Translations under genes and position numbers: made by a program
Part shown: positions 15,520 to 26,003 of the stretch, in pieces
Layout: every line of letters starts with the position of its first letter
Position numbering within the stretch: the stretch's first letter is position 1
Notes under the pieces: model-generated
Databases searched by the model: none
The model's input: the letters and a program-made list of their open reading frames with translations, nothing else
Told to the model about the DNA's origin: nothing
Assembly (NCBI RefSeq): GCF_037113415.1
Contig: NZ_CP146608.1
Location: 1,136,501-1,200,500 of the forward strand
From: Devosia sp. XK-2
GTDB taxonomy: Bacteria; Pseudomonadota; Alphaproteobacteria; Rhizobiales; Devosiaceae
Length of the DNA: 64,000 bases
Reading direction: 5' to 3'

Positions 15520-16683
15520 TCAGGCGATCAGGGCCAGCCCCTTGGTATCGGCGCCGAGCAGGGCCGCAATGAGGTCCGATTGGGTCACCATGCCCTGCAA
15601 TTGCCCGTTGCCGGTGGCCACGGGCAGGTGATGGTGGCCGGTATCGAGCATCAGCTTGACCACCAGGGCAATAGGCGTCGCCTCGGTGACGCTCGCCACG
15701 TTTGCACTCATCACGTCCCGGACTTTGCCGCGCAGCGGCCGGTCCGAATTCGATATGGACCGTAAGCGCCAGCCCAGGCCCGACGAAGCGTGAGCCGGCC
15801 CCCATTCGGCCTTTTCGAGAATATCGGTCTGGGTCAGGATGCCGGCCACATGCCCGGCCATGTCCACCACCGGCAGGGCCTTGATCTCGTGGCTGCGCAT
15901 GGCGCGCAGGGCCACGCGCAGCGAAGTGCCCGGCTGCACGCTGACCACATTGCGCGCCATGACCATGCCCACGGTGAGACCGCCGGAGCGGCGCAGGAAC
16001 GCCAGCAAGGCCGCCCGCTCGAGCATGTTTTCGAGGTCCATCGGGTCCACGCTCACCACTTCGTCGCGCTCGCGGATCGCGGCCTTGAGATCATCCACCG
16101 AGATCCCGAGGCTCACCTTGGGGGCAAAAGGGATCACCTTGGCGCTGGCGACCGGCGTGGCGGCCGCGCGATGCGGATATTGCTTGCCCGTCATGCGGTT
16201 GAACGCCACCGCGGTGAGTAGCAGCATGATCGAATTGATGGCCACCGGCCAGGCCACGAAAGCATAGCCCAGTTCGGTAATGGCCGGACCGCCGATCACC
16301 GCGGTAAGCGCCACCGCGCCGCTGGGCGGATGCAGGCATTTGAAGGTCAGCATCAGGCCGATGCTGACCGAGACCGCCAGCGCCGCTGCCACGGCCGTGC
16401 CGCCCAGCACCATGGCGCAACTGACCCCCACCAATGCGGCCAGACAATTGCCGGCAAGAATGGACCATGGCTGCGCCAACGGACTGGCGGGTACGGCAAA
16501 CAGCAGCACGGCCGAGGCGCCGATCGGTGCCATCAAGAGCGGCAGCTCCTGGCCCTGGCCGAGCGCCAGCGCCGTCACCCCGGCGGTCGCCAGGATGCCG
16601 ACAAAGGCACCCATAGCGGCGCGGAGCCGCTCGAGCGGGCTGACCGGGACCATATTGGGTAGGAGGCGGGCGAGAAACGTCAT
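15520..16683 (-). CDS. HPP-family membrane protein with two CBS domains
   Basis: A 387-residue protein. The N-terminal half has about four or five membrane segments and the CLHPPSGAVAL motif that names the HPP family. The C-terminal half holds a tandem CBS pair (VMARNVVSVQPGTSLRVALRAM and VMSANVASVTEATPIALVVKLM), which usually binds adenylates. Related HPP proteins have been linked to nitrite or other anion movement, but no substrate is shown here. The start is MTFLARLL at 16683. It converges with the acuI-type gene. Confidence 0.85.
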   Translation of the reverse strand: MTFLARLLPNMVPVSPLERLRAAMGAFVGILATAGVTALALGQGQELPLLMAPIGASAVLLFAVPASPLAQPWSILAGNCLAALVGVSCAMVLGGTAVAAALAVSVSIGLMLTFKCLHPPSGAVALTAVIGGPAITELGYAFVAWPVAINSIMLLLTAVAFNRMTGKQYPHRAAATPVASAKVIPFAPKVSLGISVDDLKAAIRERDEVVSVDPMDLENMLERAALLAFLRRSGGLTVGMVMARNVVSVQPGTSLRVALRAMRSHEIKALPVVDMAGHVAGILTQTDILEKAEWGPAHASSGLGWRLRSISNSDRPLRGKVRDVMSANVASVTEATPIALVVKLMLDTGHHHLPVATGNGQLQGMVTQSDLIAALLGADTKGLALIA

Positions 16684-16988
16684 CGCCGCTCCACTAGCAT
16701 CGCGCCTGCAAGGGCACAAAGCGTGACGATGCGTTCTTTTCGCCAATCGCGCAAAAAAATGCTGGGCCCAACGGAGCCTGCCTGCGCCCGCCCGGGCAAT
16801 CTCGAAGCGATGGGAACGCGGCCGGGGGAGGGGGCGTCTTTGCGGGCGATGCCGGGCGGACGGGGCCGGACCGTCTTGCCGCGACCTATCCCAAAGGCCT
16901 AACCTGCCTGACAGGACGGTGACAGGGAGCGCGCCTAAGCTTCCTGCTACGGACGCAACGACGTTCGCAATTGTTCTAGGGAGGAACT
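16684..16988. other. Divergent intergenic region before tctC
   Basis: No gene is seen. This 305-base stretch should carry the promoters of the HPP gene (minus) and of the tctCBA operon (plus), and sites for the TctD-like regulator if that controls tct. A clear ribosome site (GGGAGG) lies six bases before tctC. No convincing operator palindrome was found. Confidence 0.5.
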
Positions 16989-17933
16989 ATGAACAAGCTG
17001 CTTCTCGCGGCGCTGGTAACCGGCGCCCTTTCCGCACCTGCTTTCGCCGCCGATTATACCATCATGGCGCCTGCCGGCCCTGGCGGCGGTTGGGACCAGA
17101 CCGCCCGCACCATGCAGGATGCCCTGCAGAGCGAAGGCATTTCGGGCAATGTGCAGGTGACCAACGTTCCCGGCGCCGGCGGCACGATTGGCCTGGCCCA
17201 GTTCGCCACGCAGGAAAACGGCAATCCCAATGCCCTGATCGTTGGTGGCTATGTGATGGTTGGCGCCATCCTGACCAATATGTCGCCGGTGACGCTGGAC
17301 AATGTTACCCCGATTGCGCGGCTGACCGGTGAGGCGGTGGCGCTCGTGGTGCCGGCGGCCTCGGATATTCAAAGCGTTGACGATCTGGTCGCCAAGCTCA
17401 AGGAAGATCCCGGTGCCGTCGCCTGGGCCGGCGGTTCGGCCGGTGGCGTCGACCACATTGCCGCCGGGCTCATTGCCAAGGCCATCGGCGTCGATCCGAC
17501 CCAGGTCAACTACATCGCCTATTCGGGCGGTGGCGAGGCCCTTGCCGCCATTCTGGGCGGTCAGGTGACGGTCGGCGTCTCGGGCGTCAGTGAATTTGCT
17601 TCGCAGATCGAGGCGGGCGAGCTGCGTCTGCTGGCCGTCTCGACCGATACCCGAGTGCCCGGCTTTGATGCCCCGACCCTGATGGAAGAGGGCGTCGACG
17701 TGGCCGTGCAGAACTGGCGCATGGTTGCGGCGGCGCCCGGCATTACCGATGAGCAGAAAGCAGCCATCACCGCCGATATCAAGGCCATGGCCGAGTCGGA
17801 GACCTGGACCACCGCGCTTGAAACCAAGGGCTGGGTGAACACCTATCTCGACGGCGATGCCTTCGCCGCCCAGCTTGAAGCTGACAAGGCGGCGACCGAG
17901 GCCATCCTGAAAGATATCGGCCTGGTCCAATGA
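16989..17933 (+). CDS. tctC: Tripartite tricarboxylate transporter binding protein TctC
   Basis: A 314-residue periplasmic protein. A cleavable Sec signal ends at APAFAA (about residue 20). The mature part begins DYTIMAPAGPGGGWDQTARTM, the hallmark ligand-loop of the TctC/Bug family, and contains AWAGGSAGGVDHIAAG. It captures a tri- or dicarboxylate and delivers it to TctAB. It overlaps tctB by four bases (ATGA). The exact ligand cannot be read from sequence; citrate is only the family type substrate. Confidence 0.93.
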   Translation: MNKLLLAALVTGALSAPAFAADYTIMAPAGPGGGWDQTARTMQDALQSEGISGNVQVTNVPGAGGTIGLAQFATQENGNPNALIVGGYVMVGAILTNMSPVTLDNVTPIARLTGEAVALVVPAASDIQSVDDLVAKLKEDPGAVAWAGGSAGGVDHIAAGLIAKAIGVDPTQVNYIAYSGGGEALAAILGGQVTVGVSGVSEFASQIEAGELRLLAVSTDTRVPGFDAPTLMEEGVDVAVQNWRMVAAAPGITDEQKAAITADIKAMAESETWTTALETKGWVNTYLDGDAFAAQLEADKAATEAILKDIGLVQ

Positions 17934-18427
17934 CAACTGGCTCCTCCAGCCGCGAGCGCCGCCCCGATGGGGCGGCGCTTGTCATCGCCGCTATTCTCGC
18001 CGGCCTTGCCGTCGTCATTTTCTGGCAGACCAGCCAGATGCGCCTGCCCCCGCTGCAGCAGCGCGTCGGGCCCACCGTCTTTCCCTATGTGATCGCCAGC
18101 GGCCTTGTGCTCCTGGCCATAGGCACCGTGATTTCGGCCATGCGCGGCAGCTTTCCCGAGCGATCCAAGGACGATTACGCGCCGATTTTCTGGATCGTCG
18201 CCGGTCTTCTGGCGCAAATCCTGCTGCTCTCGACTGCAGGCTTTTCCATTGCCACGGGCGTACTCTTCGCCTTTACGGCCAGGGCCTTCGGGCGCGGGCC
18301 GCTCTGGCAGACCATTCCCATCGGCGCCGTCTTTGCCTTCGTGGTCTGGTTCATCTTCGCCAAGGGACTGCAATTGTCTCTGCCGGCCGGGGCCCTTGAG
18401 CGCCTGCTGACCACGGGGAGCTTCTGA
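17930..18427 (+). CDS. tctB: Tripartite tricarboxylate transporter small membrane protein TctB
   Basis: A 165-residue inner-membrane protein with four hydrophobic segments ([50 protein letters not shown] and [13 protein letters not shown]). Size, topology and position between tctC and tctA fit the TctB family. Overlapping start and stop codons on both sides indicate translational coupling. Confidence 0.9.
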
Positions 18428-19974
18428 TGGGAACTTTCGATCTGCTCGCCCAGGGCCTCCTCGCCGCCCTGCAGGTGCACAACCTCATTTACGCGCTGAT
18501 CGGGGTGACCCTGGGCACGGCCGTCGGCGTGCTGCCCGGCATCGGCCCGGCGCTGACCGTGGCGCTGCTCCTGCCCGTTACCTATAAGCTCGATCCGGCG
18601 GGGTCGCTGATCATGTTCGCCGGCATCTACTATGGCGGCATGTATGGCGGCTCGACCACCTCCATCCTGCTCAACACGCCGGGCGAAAGCGCCTCCATCG
18701 TGACCGCGCTCGAGGGCAACAAGATGGCCCGCCAGGGCAGGGGCGGACCGGCACTGGCCACCGCTGCCATCGGCTCCTTTGTGGCCGGTCTGCTGGCCAC
18801 GCTGGGCTTGGCTTTCATCGCGCCCTTCGTGGTGAAGTTCGCCCTGTCCTTCGGGCCATGGGACTATTTCGCCCTGATGGTTCTGGCCTTTGTGACGGTT
18901 TCGGCGGCCTTCGGGGATTCCGCATTGCGCGGCCTGACGGCGCTGTTCATCGGTCTGGGCCTGGGGCTTATCGGCATTGATCTCCAGACCGGCCAAACCC
19001 GTTTGGCCTTTGGTGTCATGGACTTGCTCGATGGTATTGAAGTGACCACACTGGCGGTGGCCCTGTTCGCCATCGGCGAGACGCTCAAGACCGCATCGGA
19101 CCGCGACCAGGCCAATACCGAGGTAACGGCGGTCAAAGGCTCGGTCTGGATGACCATTGAAGATTGGAAGCGGAGCTGGGCCTCCTGGCTGCGCGGCACC
19201 TTCATCGGCTTCCCCATCGGCGCCATGCCGGCGGGCGGCGCGGACGTGGCCAGCTTCCTCTCCTATAGCGCGGAAAAGAGCTTCTCCAAAAAGCCTGAAG
19301 AGTTCGGCAACGGCGCCATTGAGGGCGTGGCCGGACCCGAAGCGGCCAATAATGCCTCAGCGGCCGGCACTCTGGTGCCCCTGCTGACGCTGGGCCTGCC
19401 CACCACCGCCACGGCGGCCATCATGCTGGCTGGTTTCCAGCAATTCGGCCTGCAGCCGGGGCCATTGCTGTTCGCCAATAATGCGCCGCTGGTCTGGGCG
19501 CTGATCGCGAGCCTGCTGGTCGCCAATTTCATGCTGCTGGTGCTCAACCTGCCGCTGATCGGCCTCTGGGTGCGGCTGCTGACCATACCCAAGCACTGGC
19601 TCTATGCCGGTATCCTGACCTTCGCCACCCTGGGCACTTTGGGCGCCAATGGGGCCATGTCCATGGGCTTCGGGCCGGTGCGGATCAGCTTCGAACTGGT
19701 GCTGCTCTTGGCCTTTGGTGTGCTGGGCTATCTGCTCCGCCGTTTCGGCTATCCGATTGCGCCCGTCGTCGTGGGGCTGATTCTTGGACCCATGGCCGAA
19801 CAGCAATTGCGCCGGGCGCTGGCCATCAGCCAAGGCGATATCGGTATCCTCTTCACCTCGCCGATCTCGATCACGCTCTATATAGTGGCGATCATTGCCG
19901 TTGGCGTGCCGCTGATCATGCGGTTGCGCGGGCAGGGCGGCGTGCTGGGGCAATTGGCGACAGACGAAGACTGA
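18427..19974 (+). CDS. tctA: Tripartite tricarboxylate transporter large permease TctA
   Basis: A 515-residue permease with about 11-12 membrane segments. Family motifs visible are [41 protein letters not shown] and [20 protein letters not shown]. It is the sodium- or proton-coupled channel of the system. Its ATG shares a base with the tctB stop. A strong hairpin follows, so tctCBA is probably a three-gene transcript. Confidence 0.95.
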
Positions 19975-20039: not shown

Positions 20040-20384
20040 CTAGCGGCTGAGTTTGCCCGAAGGCCGGGCGGGCGGCACTGGGTCGGGCGATCCGCCGCCG
20101 CTATCGGAGAGCGATTGCGGCGCCTCTTCGCGGCCCTTGAACTCGGAATTGATGTCCTGACAGAAATCGGTCGTGTTATCCGGATCGGTCAGGGCACATT
20201 CGGCCTTGTAATTGCCGCGGGTGTCGCATTCGAGCTCGTCCTCGCCATTGGGCAATTGATATTCGAAACAGATCAGGTCGTCATCGTCAGCCATCGCGAC
20301 GCTCGGGGCGAGTGGCGTGAATGCAAGCAGGGCGGCCAGGGTTGCTGCTGTCGTGCTGATGGCGCGAAGGGTGTTGGGGGTCAT
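20040..20384 (-). CDS. Small secreted hypothetical protein
   Basis: A 114-residue protein of unknown function. Residues 1-32 are a signal peptide (hydrophobic to VAMA, then DDDD). The mature part is acidic with four Cys (ICFEY, LECDTRG, AECAL, FCQDI), possibly two disulfides in the periplasm. The last third is Ser/Pro-rich and looks disordered. A GAGGAG ribosome site precedes the ATG. Confidence 0.7.
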   Translation of the reverse strand: MTPNTLRAISTTAATLAALLAFTPLAPSVAMADDDDLICFEYQLPNGEDELECDTRGNYKAECALTDPDNTTDFCQDINSEFKGREEAPQSLSDSGGGSPDPVPPARPSGKLSR

Positions 20385-20983: not shown

Positions 20984-23446
20984 TCACGGCTTGGGCGAGA
21001 CGATTTCCTGCCAGGTGTCGAGAAAGCGTTGCCGTCGCAATGTGTCGAGCGCCACCAGAAGGCCAGGGCCGAGCGGGATCGGCTGGATGACGCCCCGCCC
21101 GCGCCCGGCAATGGCCTCGCTGGTCCAGTCGCCCGAGCCATTGGGCACGACCGAGCCCAGAGCGGTGGGACCGGAAGCCACCGCTTGTCCGGCGGGCGAC
21201 AGGGCAAAATCGACAAAAGCCTTGGCCAACTCTGCATGGGGCGCATCCCTGGGGATCAGCATGGAGCGGGTGAGCACCAGCACATAATCGTCCGGCACGA
21301 CGATTTCGATGGGTGCGCCCTCGGACTGACGGGCAAAGGCATAGGAGCCCAGTACATTGTAGCCCAGCGCCAGCGTGCCATCGGCCACGCCATTGAGAAT
21401 GGCGGGGCTCGACCCAGAAAAGCGCGCATTGACCCGCCCGAAGGCATTGGCCAGGCGCCAGAAGGTGGATGAAATGGTCTGGTCCTGCGCCGCCAGCAGG
21501 TAACCCACGCCCGATAGGGCAATGTCGTAAGTTGCGATCTTGCCGCGAAACCGCTCGGTCTGGGTCTCGAGCAGCTCGGCCAGCGTGAGATGGGTGCGCG
21601 GCACCTCCGCATCGTCGATCAGGGCGCGATTATAGATGATGACGGCCGGCTCGAAGGTGAAGCCGAAGACCTCGTTTCGCCAATGCGCCCAATCGGGCAG
21701 GTCAGCCAGATAGGGGCTGTCATAGGCCAGGGCATGACCGTCATTGGCCAGCTTCAATTGCAGATCGGAGGCCGAACTGATGAGCAGGTCCGGCGGCGTT
21801 TCGAGCGTGCCGGCCAGGAAGTTCTCGAACAGGGGCAGCGAGTCCGTCTCCTCATAGGCGACGGTGACGTCGGCGTGCTGAGCCTGAAAGCTTTCCACGA
21901 AATGCGCGAAAAGCGGCGTGTCGGTGACGCCCAGAATATTGAGCACGATATCGGAGGAGCCATCGCGGGCCGGATAGATGGTCGTGGCCGCATCGACCGG
22001 GGCCGGGGCCAGCAGCAATGCTCCACCAAGCGCAATAGCGGCGATCATGCCCGGCGGCGCAATGGCGCCACGGCGCGAAAGGGGCAGAGTAATGGCAACT
22101 GTCAGGCCGCCTCCCTCGCGGTCGAGCAGGGTCAGACGGCCCTTATGGGCCTGGGCGACCCGGGCGACGATGGACAGGCCGAGCCCTGAGCCCACTATGC
22201 CATTGCTGCTCTGGCCCCGCTTGAACCGCTCCAGAACGCTCGGTTTTTCGGCATCGGCAATGCCGGGGCCGCGATCGCTGATCCTGATGAGCAATCGATC
22301 ACCCTCGATCTGGCCCAGAATGTCGACGCGGCCTTGCGAATAGATCAGGGCATTGTCGACCACATTGCGCATCATTTCGCGCAGCGCCACGCGGTCGCCG
22401 CGCAAGGGCGCCTCGGCGGCGGCGGGGGCGAGGTCAATCTGCAATCTTTGCGCCTGATCGGGGTCCAGGCGCTGGCGTACATCTTCGATCACCGAGGCCA
22501 GAGTCGTGGTCTCGATCTCGCTATTCTCCATGCGATGGGAAATGGTCGCCTCCATCAGCAATTGGCTGACCAACTGGCTCGCCTGCACAGCGCCGGTATG
22601 GATGCGGTCAATGCGCCGCCTCAAGGCCTCGGGGTCCTGCTCGTCCATGGCAACCTCGGCTTGCGCGCGCAGCGAAGCCAGTGGCGTGCGCACTTCATGC
22701 GCGGCCTCGGCCACCAACCCGCTGACCCGCTCCATGGCCTTTTGCAGACGTGCCATGAAGCCATTGAGCGCGGAAACCAGATGCGCAACCTCGTTGGGCA
22801 CCGGCACTGTAATGGCCGACAGATCGTCGGGCGGGCGGGCGCGCAATTCATGTTCGAGCTGGGTCAGGGGCGCAAACATGCGCGAAATGCCGAACCAGAC
22901 CAGGCCAATGGCCAATAGCGTCAACGCCAGGACCGGAAGCACGGCATTGGACAGGATCTCATTGGCCAGCGCCTCGCGCTGATTCTGCGTTTCGGCGACA
23001 TGGATGGTGACCCAGCCGGTATCGCTCGGCGTCGAAATCAGGCGCCCGACACTGGCGACACGAATTGTCTCGCCGCGATAGCGCATATCTGCAAAGGCCG
23101 GTTCCGCCGAGACCGTCTCGCCCATCTGCGCGGCCAGGTCCTCATAGCCGGTCACGGTGCGCGCATCGGGATCTTCGACCGCGTAGAAGACCCGGTCCTG
23201 CCCGGAGAACATGGCGAAGGCGGCGAAGGGAATTTCCACCACCACCGCCTCGTTTTCCACCTGCACGGCTCCGGCAATCGTCAGGGCAGAGGCGGCCAGC
23301 AGGCGGTCAAAGGCCCGGTCCGAAGCACGTTCGGCATAGTCGCGGATGAAAATGATCAGCACCACAGAGGCGGCGAGCAAGAGGGCCACGGCCAGCGCGA
23401 AAATGCGCCGGCGGATGGAGAAGGGTTTTGTGCCGGTCCTGATCAC
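20984..23446 (-). CDS. Sensor histidine kinase fused to a periplasmic solute-binding domain
   Basis: One uninterrupted 820-residue frame. Residues 12-34: first membrane helix; 35-162: periplasmic sensor; 163-187: second helix, then HAMP. HisKA has H250 in EAAHEVRTPLA. HATPase has N-box NVVDNALIYS (361-370), DRGPGIAD (391-398) and GSGLGLS (419-425). The kinase seems complete by residue 456. Residues 467-486 are a signal-like helix ending APVDA, then about 335 residues of family 1 (iron/sulfate type) binding protein run to the end. Topology predicts that this part lies in the periplasm, tethered or cleaved. The response regulator gene is six bases upstream. The kinase half is TctE-like; the signal sensed is unknown. 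Confidence 0.88.
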   Translation of the reverse strand: MIRTGTKPFSIRRRIFALAVALLLAASVVLIIFIRDYAERASDRAFDRLLAASALTIAGAVQVENEAVVVEIPFAAFAMFSGQDRVFYAVEDPDARTVTGYEDLAAQMGETVSAEPAFADMRYRGETIRVASVGRLISTPSDTGWVTIHVAETQNQREALANEILSNAVLPVLALTLLAIGLVWFGISRMFAPLTQLEHELRARPPDDLSAITVPVPNEVAHLVSALNGFMARLQKAMERVSGLVAEAAHEVRTPLASLRAQAEVAMDEQDPEALRRRIDRIHTGAVQASQLVSQLLMEATISHRMENSEIETTTLASVIEDVRQRLDPDQAQRLQIDLAPAAAEAPLRGDRVALREMMRNVVDNALIYSQGRVDILGQIEGDRLLIRISDRGPGIADAEKPSVLERFKRGQSSNGIVGSGLGLSIVARVAQAHKGRLTLLDREGGGLTVAITLPLSRRGAIAPPGMIAAIALGGALLLAPAPVDAATTIYPARDGSSDIVLNILGVTDTPLFAHFVESFQAQHADVTVAYEETDSLPLFENFLAGTLETPPDLLISSASDLQLKLANDGHALAYDSPYLADLPDWAHWRNEVFGFTFEPAVIIYNRALIDDAEVPRTHLTLAELLETQTERFRGKIATYDIALSGVGYLLAAQDQTISSTFWRLANAFGRVNARFSGSSPAILNGVADGTLALGYNVLGSYAFARQSEGAPIEIVVPDDYVLVLTRSMLIPRDAPHAELAKAFVDFALSPAGQAVASGPTALGSVVPNGSGDWTSEAIAGRGRGVIQPIPLGPGLLVALDTLRRQRFLDTWQEIVSPKP

Positions 23447-23452
23447 CGATAT

Positions 23453-24121
23453 CTACTCTTGGACCCGCGCGACATAGCCCACGCCCCGCACCGTGCCGAT
23501 CTCGATATTGGCGTGTTCGAGCTTCTTGCGCAGGCGCGAGATGTGCAGTTCCAGTGCATTGACCGAGACATTCTCGTCGAAATTGAAGAGCTGGTTCATC
23601 AGCCTCTCCTTGGCGACGACCTTGCCGGCATGGGCGACCAGGATTTCGAGCAGCCGAAATTCGCGGCGACCCAGCTCCAGCGTCTTGCCGGCGACCGAGG
23701 CATTGAGCCCAGCCAGATCCAGTTCGAGATTGCCCACCGAAACAGTGCTCGATGCCTGCCCGCCCGTGCGGCGCAAAAGCGCGCGCAGCCGGGCCTCCAG
23801 TTCACGCAAGTCGAAGGGTTTGACCAGATAGTCGTCGGCGCCCAGATCGAGCAGGCTGACCTTGTCGTCGATTTCCGAACGCGCGGTCATGACCAGGATC
23901 GGCGCATTGAACTTTTGTCTGCGCAGCGCGGCGATCAGGCTGATGCCATCGCGATTGGGCAACATCAGATCGAGCGCGACAGCGTCGAACGGCTCGGCTT
24001 CAGCGGCCGGCAGCACGTCGTCGCCATCCCGGACCCACTCGACCGAATGTCCCGCCGAGCGCAGCCGCTTCTCGATGGCCTCGCCCAGATCGTCATTGTC
24101 CTCTACCAGCAATATGCGCAT
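23453..24121 (-). CDS. tctD: OmpR-family response regulator, TctD-like
   Basis: A 222-residue regulator. The receiver domain has the acidic pair E7/D8, phospho-acceptor D51 (VALDLMLPNRDG) and the ADDYLVKPFD lysine. The C-terminal half is an OmpR-type winged helix (ELGRREFRLLEILVAHAGKVVAKERLMNQLF). A GGAGG ribosome site precedes the start. It is followed by the kinase fusion gene after six bases. Close similarity in style to TctD/BctD and the nearby tctCBA operon suggest that it activates tricarboxylate uptake; this is inference. Confidence 0.88.
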   Translation of the reverse strand: MRILLVEDNDDLGEAIEKRLRSAGHSVEWVRDGDDVLPAAEAEPFDAVALDLMLPNRDGISLIAALRRQKFNAPILVMTARSEIDDKVSLLDLGADDYLVKPFDLRELEARLRALLRRTGGQASSTVSVGNLELDLAGLNASVAGKTLELGRREFRLLEILVAHAGKVVAKERLMNQLFNFDENVSVNALELHISRLRKKLEHANIEIGTVRGVGYVARVQE

Positions 24122-25598: not shown

Positions 25599-25984
25599 AT
25601 GAGCGGCCTCGTCTATTACTCCAGCACCTCGGAAAACACCCACCGCTTCGTTGAGAAGCTGGGTGTGGGCGGGGTCCGCCTGCCGGTGGACGCTGCGAGC
25701 GAGCCGCCGGTCGTGAACGAGCCCTTTGTTCTGGTCTTGCCCACCTATGGCGGCGGGGAAGACAAGGGGGCCGTGCCCAAGCCGGTCATCCGCTTTCTCA
25801 ATGTCGCGCATAATCGCGCACTCATCCGCGGCGTCATCGCCGCGGGAAACACCAATTTTGGCACGGGCTATTGCATTGCCGGCGACATTGTCAGCCAGAA
25901 ATGCGCCGTGCCGCTTCTCTACCGCTTCGAGCTGCTCGGAACGGAAGAGGATGTCGCCAATGTCAGACAGGGACTGGAACGGTT

Positions 25985-26003
<19 letters not shown>
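25599..26003 (+). CDS. nrdI: Flavodoxin-like NrdI
   Basis: A 134-residue flavoprotein that helps assemble the manganese cofactor of NrdF. The N-terminal [17 protein letters not shown] is the FMN phosphate-binding region, and [21 protein letters not shown] and [11 protein letters not shown] are family motifs. A GGAAGG ribosome site precedes the ATG. Its end overlaps the proposed nrdE start by 19 bases. Confidence 0.95.

Follow-up and report, generated by a model that had tools for sequence, protein, structure and literature searches.

A TctE-like histidine kinase and a solute-binding protein encoded in one conserved reading frame in Devosia sp. XK-2

A fused kinase and binding protein gene

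The DNA analyzed here, referred to as the window, is a stretch of 64,000 nucleotides from Devosia sp. XK-2 (contig NZ_CP146608.1, positions 1,136,501 to 1,200,500), and our subject is a gene on its minus strand that encodes a histidine kinase and a solute-binding protein (SBP) in a single frame of 820 residues (23446..20984). The frame begins with a GTG start codon and contains no internal stops, and the plus strand across 20984..23446 is interrupted by stops. The gene and its parts are as follows.

20984..23446, minus strand: fused kinase and SBP gene, 820 aa, GTG start
22070..23446, minus strand: kinase part, residues 1-459 (Pfam; conserved H, N, and G box residues)
22955..23380, minus strand: 2CSK_N sensor domain, residues 23-164, including part of the first membrane helix (Pfam PF08521, E 3e-35)
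22541..22720, minus strand: HisKA, residues 243-302, with phospho-acceptor H250 (Pfam PF00512; H250 invariant, n = 30)
22076..22399, minus strand: HATPase_c, residues 350-457 (Pfam PF02518)
21989..22051, minus strand: internal signal-peptide-like segment, residues 466-486, with a predicted signal peptidase I cut after A486, between VDA and A (junction conservation)
20987..21988, minus strand: SBP, residues 487-820, 3c9h/MctA-like (phmmer, AlphaFold2 model, fold matches, and pocket residues)

The kinase part has the three domains of the TctE/QseC-like (2CSK_N) type in the expected order, each above its Pfam cut-off (2CSK_N, 121.7 versus 23.2 bits; HisKA, 43.6 versus 26.9; HATPase_c, 77.1 versus 26.4). 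Across 30 aligned fused proteins, that of the window included, no variation is seen at H250, N361, N365, D391, G393, G395, G419, G421, and G423. Kinases of this type usually end after the ATPase domain, with the C terminus in the cytoplasm, and the fused frame departs from this ending by continuing into a signal-like segment and a full SBP. By one rough measure, the linker between the ATPase domain and the hydrophobic segment has 15 residues in the window and 4 in L149; this measure misplaced four rows (L005, L023, L028, and L030) and found no motif in L151. The host genome contains only one such fused gene; 21 other matches reach an E value of 0.001 or better, 20 of them to the kinase part and one, weak, to the SBP part.

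The SBP part comprises about 334 residues (487 to 820), of which those between 511 and 766 are matched by several overlapping SBP_bac families of Pfam; no NCBIfam family matches it above the cut-off. The structures closest to it are those of Agrobacterium 3c9h and of the metal-citrate-binding protein MctA (7f6e and related entries), with which it belongs by sequence and by fold over the whole SBP domain. We compared S26, D28, S79, S164, T199, and Y221 of MctA, whose positions come from the titles of mutant entries and whose role in citrate contact we infer: four are identical here, T199 is replaced by S, and S26 is replaced by V or T. By analogy, the ligand would be a citrate-like carboxylate, perhaps metal complexed.

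Conservation of the fusion and of its junction

The fusion and its conservation are established by two sets of genomes. In a species collection, 35 of 39 related loci carry an uninterrupted fused frame; the four exceptions are a locus that ends with its contig at the kinase end (L034), one with broken frames (L035), one with two genes (L038), and one with the kinase only (L039). Among 61 genomes drawn from the genus Devosia, 43 have the full-length fused frame, and two of these also have another fused copy, which is only distantly related (38% and 35% identity). Four others match at 1e-100 without a full frame: it is broken in the kinase part of G1111 and in both parts of G1135, the match in G1145 is partial, and the locus in G1106 is split. 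The remaining 14 have no match at 1e-100. Together with the domain matches and the invariant H, N, and G residues, these counts confirm a first-pass annotation, made from the sequence alone, that had described one frame joining a complete TctE-like kinase, a signal-like helix, and a full binding protein. In L168 and L169, the frames of the kinase-SBP and tct genes (see below) are broken at several places, which looks like assembly error and not loss; L169 is apparently on the same contig as L035, to judge by the equal length.

Wider draws were made from the order (397 genomes), the class (385), and the phylum (398), and the frames of the matches were checked; matches were limited to those below 1e-50 or 1e-60, and the count for the phylum leaves out loci with odd open frames, such as L106 and L117. 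Among the matches listed, a single frame spanning both parts occurs in at least 21 genomes of the order, a count that includes the window's own genome, and in two of the class and none of the phylum, counts that leave it out. Those of the order are 12 genomes of the window's genus (all 12 drawn), one from another genus of the same family (G345), and eight others (G121, G150, G198, G120, G045, G382, G254, and G369), and the class draw adds G641 and G720. Fused frames are also present in families beyond the window's. Many other relatives among the matches listed have kinase and SBP genes side by side, and some of these pairs are divergent.

The junction was compared in 36 fused proteins (the 39 related loci and the window, minus the four exceptions above). 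Counted from the predicted cut, position -1 is Ala in all 36, with four codons used, and position -3 is A in 27, T in 5, and V in 4, with nothing else; position -2 is free, and Pro is the commonest residue at -6 (25/36). To judge from these alignments, positions are kept or left free as they are in a signal peptide. Signal peptidase I recognizes a hydrophobic core followed by a small residue at -3 and Ala at -1, and the junction conforms to this rule. A fixed test for sites of the signal peptidase type is passed by 35 of 36 junctions, compared with 1 of 36 for the first membrane helix (TM1) and 3 of 36 for the second (TM2). Under a looser rule, applied to the set used for the trees described below, 29/29 fused rows pass, in a listing without the window row, and so do 27/31 split rows; the triplets found in L003 lie upstream of the aligned one. 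By eye, a small-x-Ala triplet also closes the segment in all 10 fused proteins outside the close group (L060 to L067, L077, and L078). The site that the first-pass annotation had named APVDA corresponds to residues 482 to 486, and the domain order that it described is borne out, as is a signal-peptidase-like site by way of which the binding domain would reach the periplasm.

Separate genes for the same proteins occur in related systems, as had also been stated at that stage. Split triplets of response regulator (RR), kinase, and SBP genes (L124 to L143 and L153 to L162) are found in Alphaproteobacteria and in one further group of the phylum; tctA lies in the stretch at 23 of these 30 loci, as it does in the window, and 18 of 19 split pairs checked, chosen from the 30 for clear longest-frame coordinates, overlap by 4 bp. 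Closer to the window is L165, from genome G1106 of the same genus, in which separate genes stand in the order RR-SBP-kinase with tctCBA beside them. Its SBP and kinase are 69% and 65% identical to those of the window, its SBP has a signal-peptide-like start that ends at a site matching the fused junction, and both quick trees (kinase and SBP) nest the locus within the fused clade. The simplest reading is that L165 represents a fission with swapped gene order, which would mean that a separate SBP serves this system. In L038 (Bartonella tamiae), the two genes also follow the order RR-SBP-kinase, and the kinase trees place the locus within the clade, the SBP trees just beyond the fused rows. L038 speaks against the fission reading of L165, and the history may alternatively have been one of an older RR-SBP-kinase state and several fusions. 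Under either history, close orthologs encode a separate SBP; cutting of the fused form finds its main support in this and in the conserved -1 and -3 positions. A second SBP of the same group (32 to 34% identity) lies beside two-component genes in L038 (2900-3994, minus strand) and in L160 (4175-5281, minus strand).

The kinase tree has 61 rows, 30 of them fused (20 of the 39 related loci, 40 regions hand-picked for having the two parts fused or adjacent, and the window, with L009 identical to L163). On it, the fused label needs five changes, at least three of which are forced by well-supported branches; a smaller, quick kinase tree with L165 to L167 added needs six, five of them forced. The SBP tree of the 61-row set is a quick version, as are the trees with L165, which are without bootstrap, and the SBP tree with L165 was built without L150, L166, and L167. 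Long branches leave the exact number of changes unsure, and gains and losses are not separable everywhere. The locus family appears to record a fusion of genes in which the signal peptide was kept as an internal one, followed later by fission and permutation.

Neighboring genes and the proposed mechanism

Several genes adjoining the fused gene bear on its function.

23453..24121, minus strand: TctD-like OmpR-type RR, 6 bp upstream of the fused gene (Pfam Response_reg and Trans_reg_C)
16989..17933, plus strand: tctC, the binding protein of the transporter itself (Pfam PF03401)
17930..18427, plus strand: tctB (Pfam PF07331)
18427..19974, plus strand: tctA, convergent with the fused gene (Pfam PF01970, E 7e-152)

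The best NCBIfam match of the regulator is TctD (NF012023), at 197.3 bits, below the cut-off of 337. The tctCBA genes (16989-19974) lie downstream of the fused gene on the opposite strand, and two-component genes beside tctCBA, an arrangement of the BctCDE type, are found in the window and in other loci. The adjoining TctD-like regulator and tctCBA, which the first-pass annotation had left unmentioned, are pointers to the ligand and target of the fused gene. No ABC permease or transporter partner for the SBP was found among the Pfam-scanned neighbors, in a scan that covered part of the window's genes. A 114-residue frame with a signal-peptide-like start (20040-20384, minus strand) lies between tctA and the fused gene; it has counterparts of 75 to 84% in L001, L002, and L027 and belongs to no Pfam or NCBIfam family. 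Farther out are an NrdI flavodoxin-like gene (25599-26003, plus strand; Pfam), followed by long frames that by eye look like ribonucleotide reductase subunits, and a gene for an HPP transmembrane protein with CBS domains (15520-16746, minus strand).

From these observations we infer a scheme that we consider probable: the gene encodes a polyprotein, made up of a TctE-type, citrate-type sensor kinase and a dedicated periplasmic co-receptor, which is cut in two and controls tctCBA. The kinase part would insert through two N-terminal helices; residues 466 to 486, formerly the signal peptide of the SBP and now internal, would re-enter the Sec pathway and deliver the SBP to the periplasm; there, signal peptidase I would cut after A486. 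The freed SBP, one-to-one with the kinase, would bind its carboxylate ligand and, once loaded, would engage the 2CSK_N domain, upon which the kinase would phosphorylate the adjoining TctD-like regulator and the regulator would control the tctCBA uptake genes. The SBP most likely informs the kinase about citrate-like nutrients. If the chain is cut, kinase and SBP would be present in equal numbers, and the leftover segment would stay on the kinase as a third membrane anchor unless it is removed. More tentatively, and with chances that we put somewhat below even, the cut may constitute a built-in maturation step that fixes the 1:1 number, leaves a third membrane segment at the C terminus, and may gate or tune the kinase, in a state that arose more than once and was also undone by order-swapped fission.

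The first-pass annotation had offered both release by signal peptidase and permanent tethering; the former is favored on the sequence comparisons and the latter disfavored, because -1 and -3 are strictly conserved and because a split ortholog has a separate, secreted-looking SBP. We regard it as unlikely that the third hydrophobic segment is an anchor from which the covalently attached SBP senses in cis. The retention of the fusion through the genus and several families would suit such a tether, as would the separate SBPs of L068 and L069 (two family f17 genomes), which by eye have a lipobox and are probably lipoproteins; these suggest that in this family the SBP can function while attached to the membrane. 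The uncharged hydrophobic stretch has a median, by one measure, of 19 at the junction, 20 in TM1, and 25 in TM2, so that the junction stretch is not clearly shorter than TM1 and its length allows a stable third membrane helix; an argument for cleavage from membrane length was dropped for the same reason, since the measure fails to separate the two. However, a plain anchor gives no evident reason for an invariant Ala at -1 and for A, T, or V at -3 amid free positions, and the order-swapped ortholog inside the fused clade has its SBP as a separate protein. Further observations, like the lipoboxes and the segment length, count against the scheme of cutting and citrate sensing. Across the whole protein, 11 columns combine an invariant Ala with a small residue at the second position before it, which makes the pattern by itself no rarity; column 486 stands out among them by its position after a hydrophobic segment and by a middle residue that is by far the most variable (11 kinds; the next has 5). 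Full-length structure prediction is poor (pLDDT 64.7, from an alignment of 30 close rows), and the ligand may differ from that of MctA, given V or T in place of S26. Finally, among 45 fused loci surveyed for tctA neighborhoods, with the identical pair L009/L163 counted twice, 10 (in stretches of 8.4 to 14.5 kb) have no tctA in the stretch; a tctA ortholog (88 to 92%) lies outside the stretch in the genomes of all 8 covered by a genome-wide check, L148 and L150 being outside it.

Much less probable still is that both routes operate, with an internal start near the old SBP start from which the SBP is also translated by itself, in addition to the fused chain. An ATG lies within -40 to -14 in 20 of the 36 fused proteins, 10 of the 36 have a start codon with an AGGAGG match of at least 5/6, and starts overlap in two-gene relatives, but the positions vary among the 36, the window's sole candidate (ATG at -20) matches AGGAGG at 2/6, and in L001, a near relative, the only start codon is a GTG within the hydrophobic part. 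A conserved internal translation start is unsupported in the 36. As for an artifact of annotation or sequencing, G1111 and G1135 do carry frame breaks, but the complete frame in the 43 genus genomes and 35 related loci rules this explanation out for practical purposes. The hidden frameshift that the first-pass annotation had allowed for is absent, with the same frame found across those loci, and homologues are not always two genes, since fused ones occur in the genus and in other families.

Comparison with known systems

In the BctC-BctE-BctD system of Bordetella pertussis, a citrate-loaded periplasmic SBP signals through the kinase, according to two reports (PMC5812351, PMC9602780). The window likewise has a TctDE-type system adjoining a tripartite tricarboxylate transporter; unlike in Bordetella, where those reports describe the signaling SBP as the transporter's own TctC-type protein, encoded by a separate gene, a second SBP of the FbpA/MctA type is here joined to the kinase. 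Sensor kinases known to be informed by a separate binding protein are few, with about 10 characterized by the count in one of these reports (PMC9602780). The domain combination itself has been counted before, without its order being told: for each of three strains, passages of a survey of Azospirillum two-component systems list a single SBP_bac_1 domain as an input domain of classic kinases (PMC4618731). No description of a kinase with a C-terminal SBP was found in the titles and abstract starts of open-licence literature, which is weak evidence of absence.

The split RR-kinase-SBP triplets have homologous parts in the same order, but they are three genes, often with 4-bp overlaps, whereas the window has a kinase-SBP fusion. 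MctA and 3c9h are, by their entry titles, binding proteins of ABC transporters, whereas the SBP of the window is fused to a kinase and has no ABC permease among its scanned neighbors. In the SBP-informed systems compared here, kinase and SBP are separate genes and the SBP is free to be in excess; one such kinase system uses a dedicated SBP of the same broad fold class as a co-receptor, with separate genes and a sugar-phosphate ligand. In the FbcH cytochrome b/c1 precursor of Bradyrhizobium, signal peptidase cuts an internal signal to give membrane and periplasmic parts, a precedent that our literature search left unconfirmed; FbcH belongs to a respiratory complex, whereas the window protein is a sensor. 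A cytochrome b-c1 fusion was not found in the host genome, where the cytochrome c1 open frame, at 427 aa, is too short. A conserved fusion with a cleavable-looking signal makes stoichiometry, tethering, and release testable by one or two residue changes, and the solved fold, of citrate type, supplies a lead for the ligand. The window system is a variant of the SBP-informed two-component systems and not a new kind.
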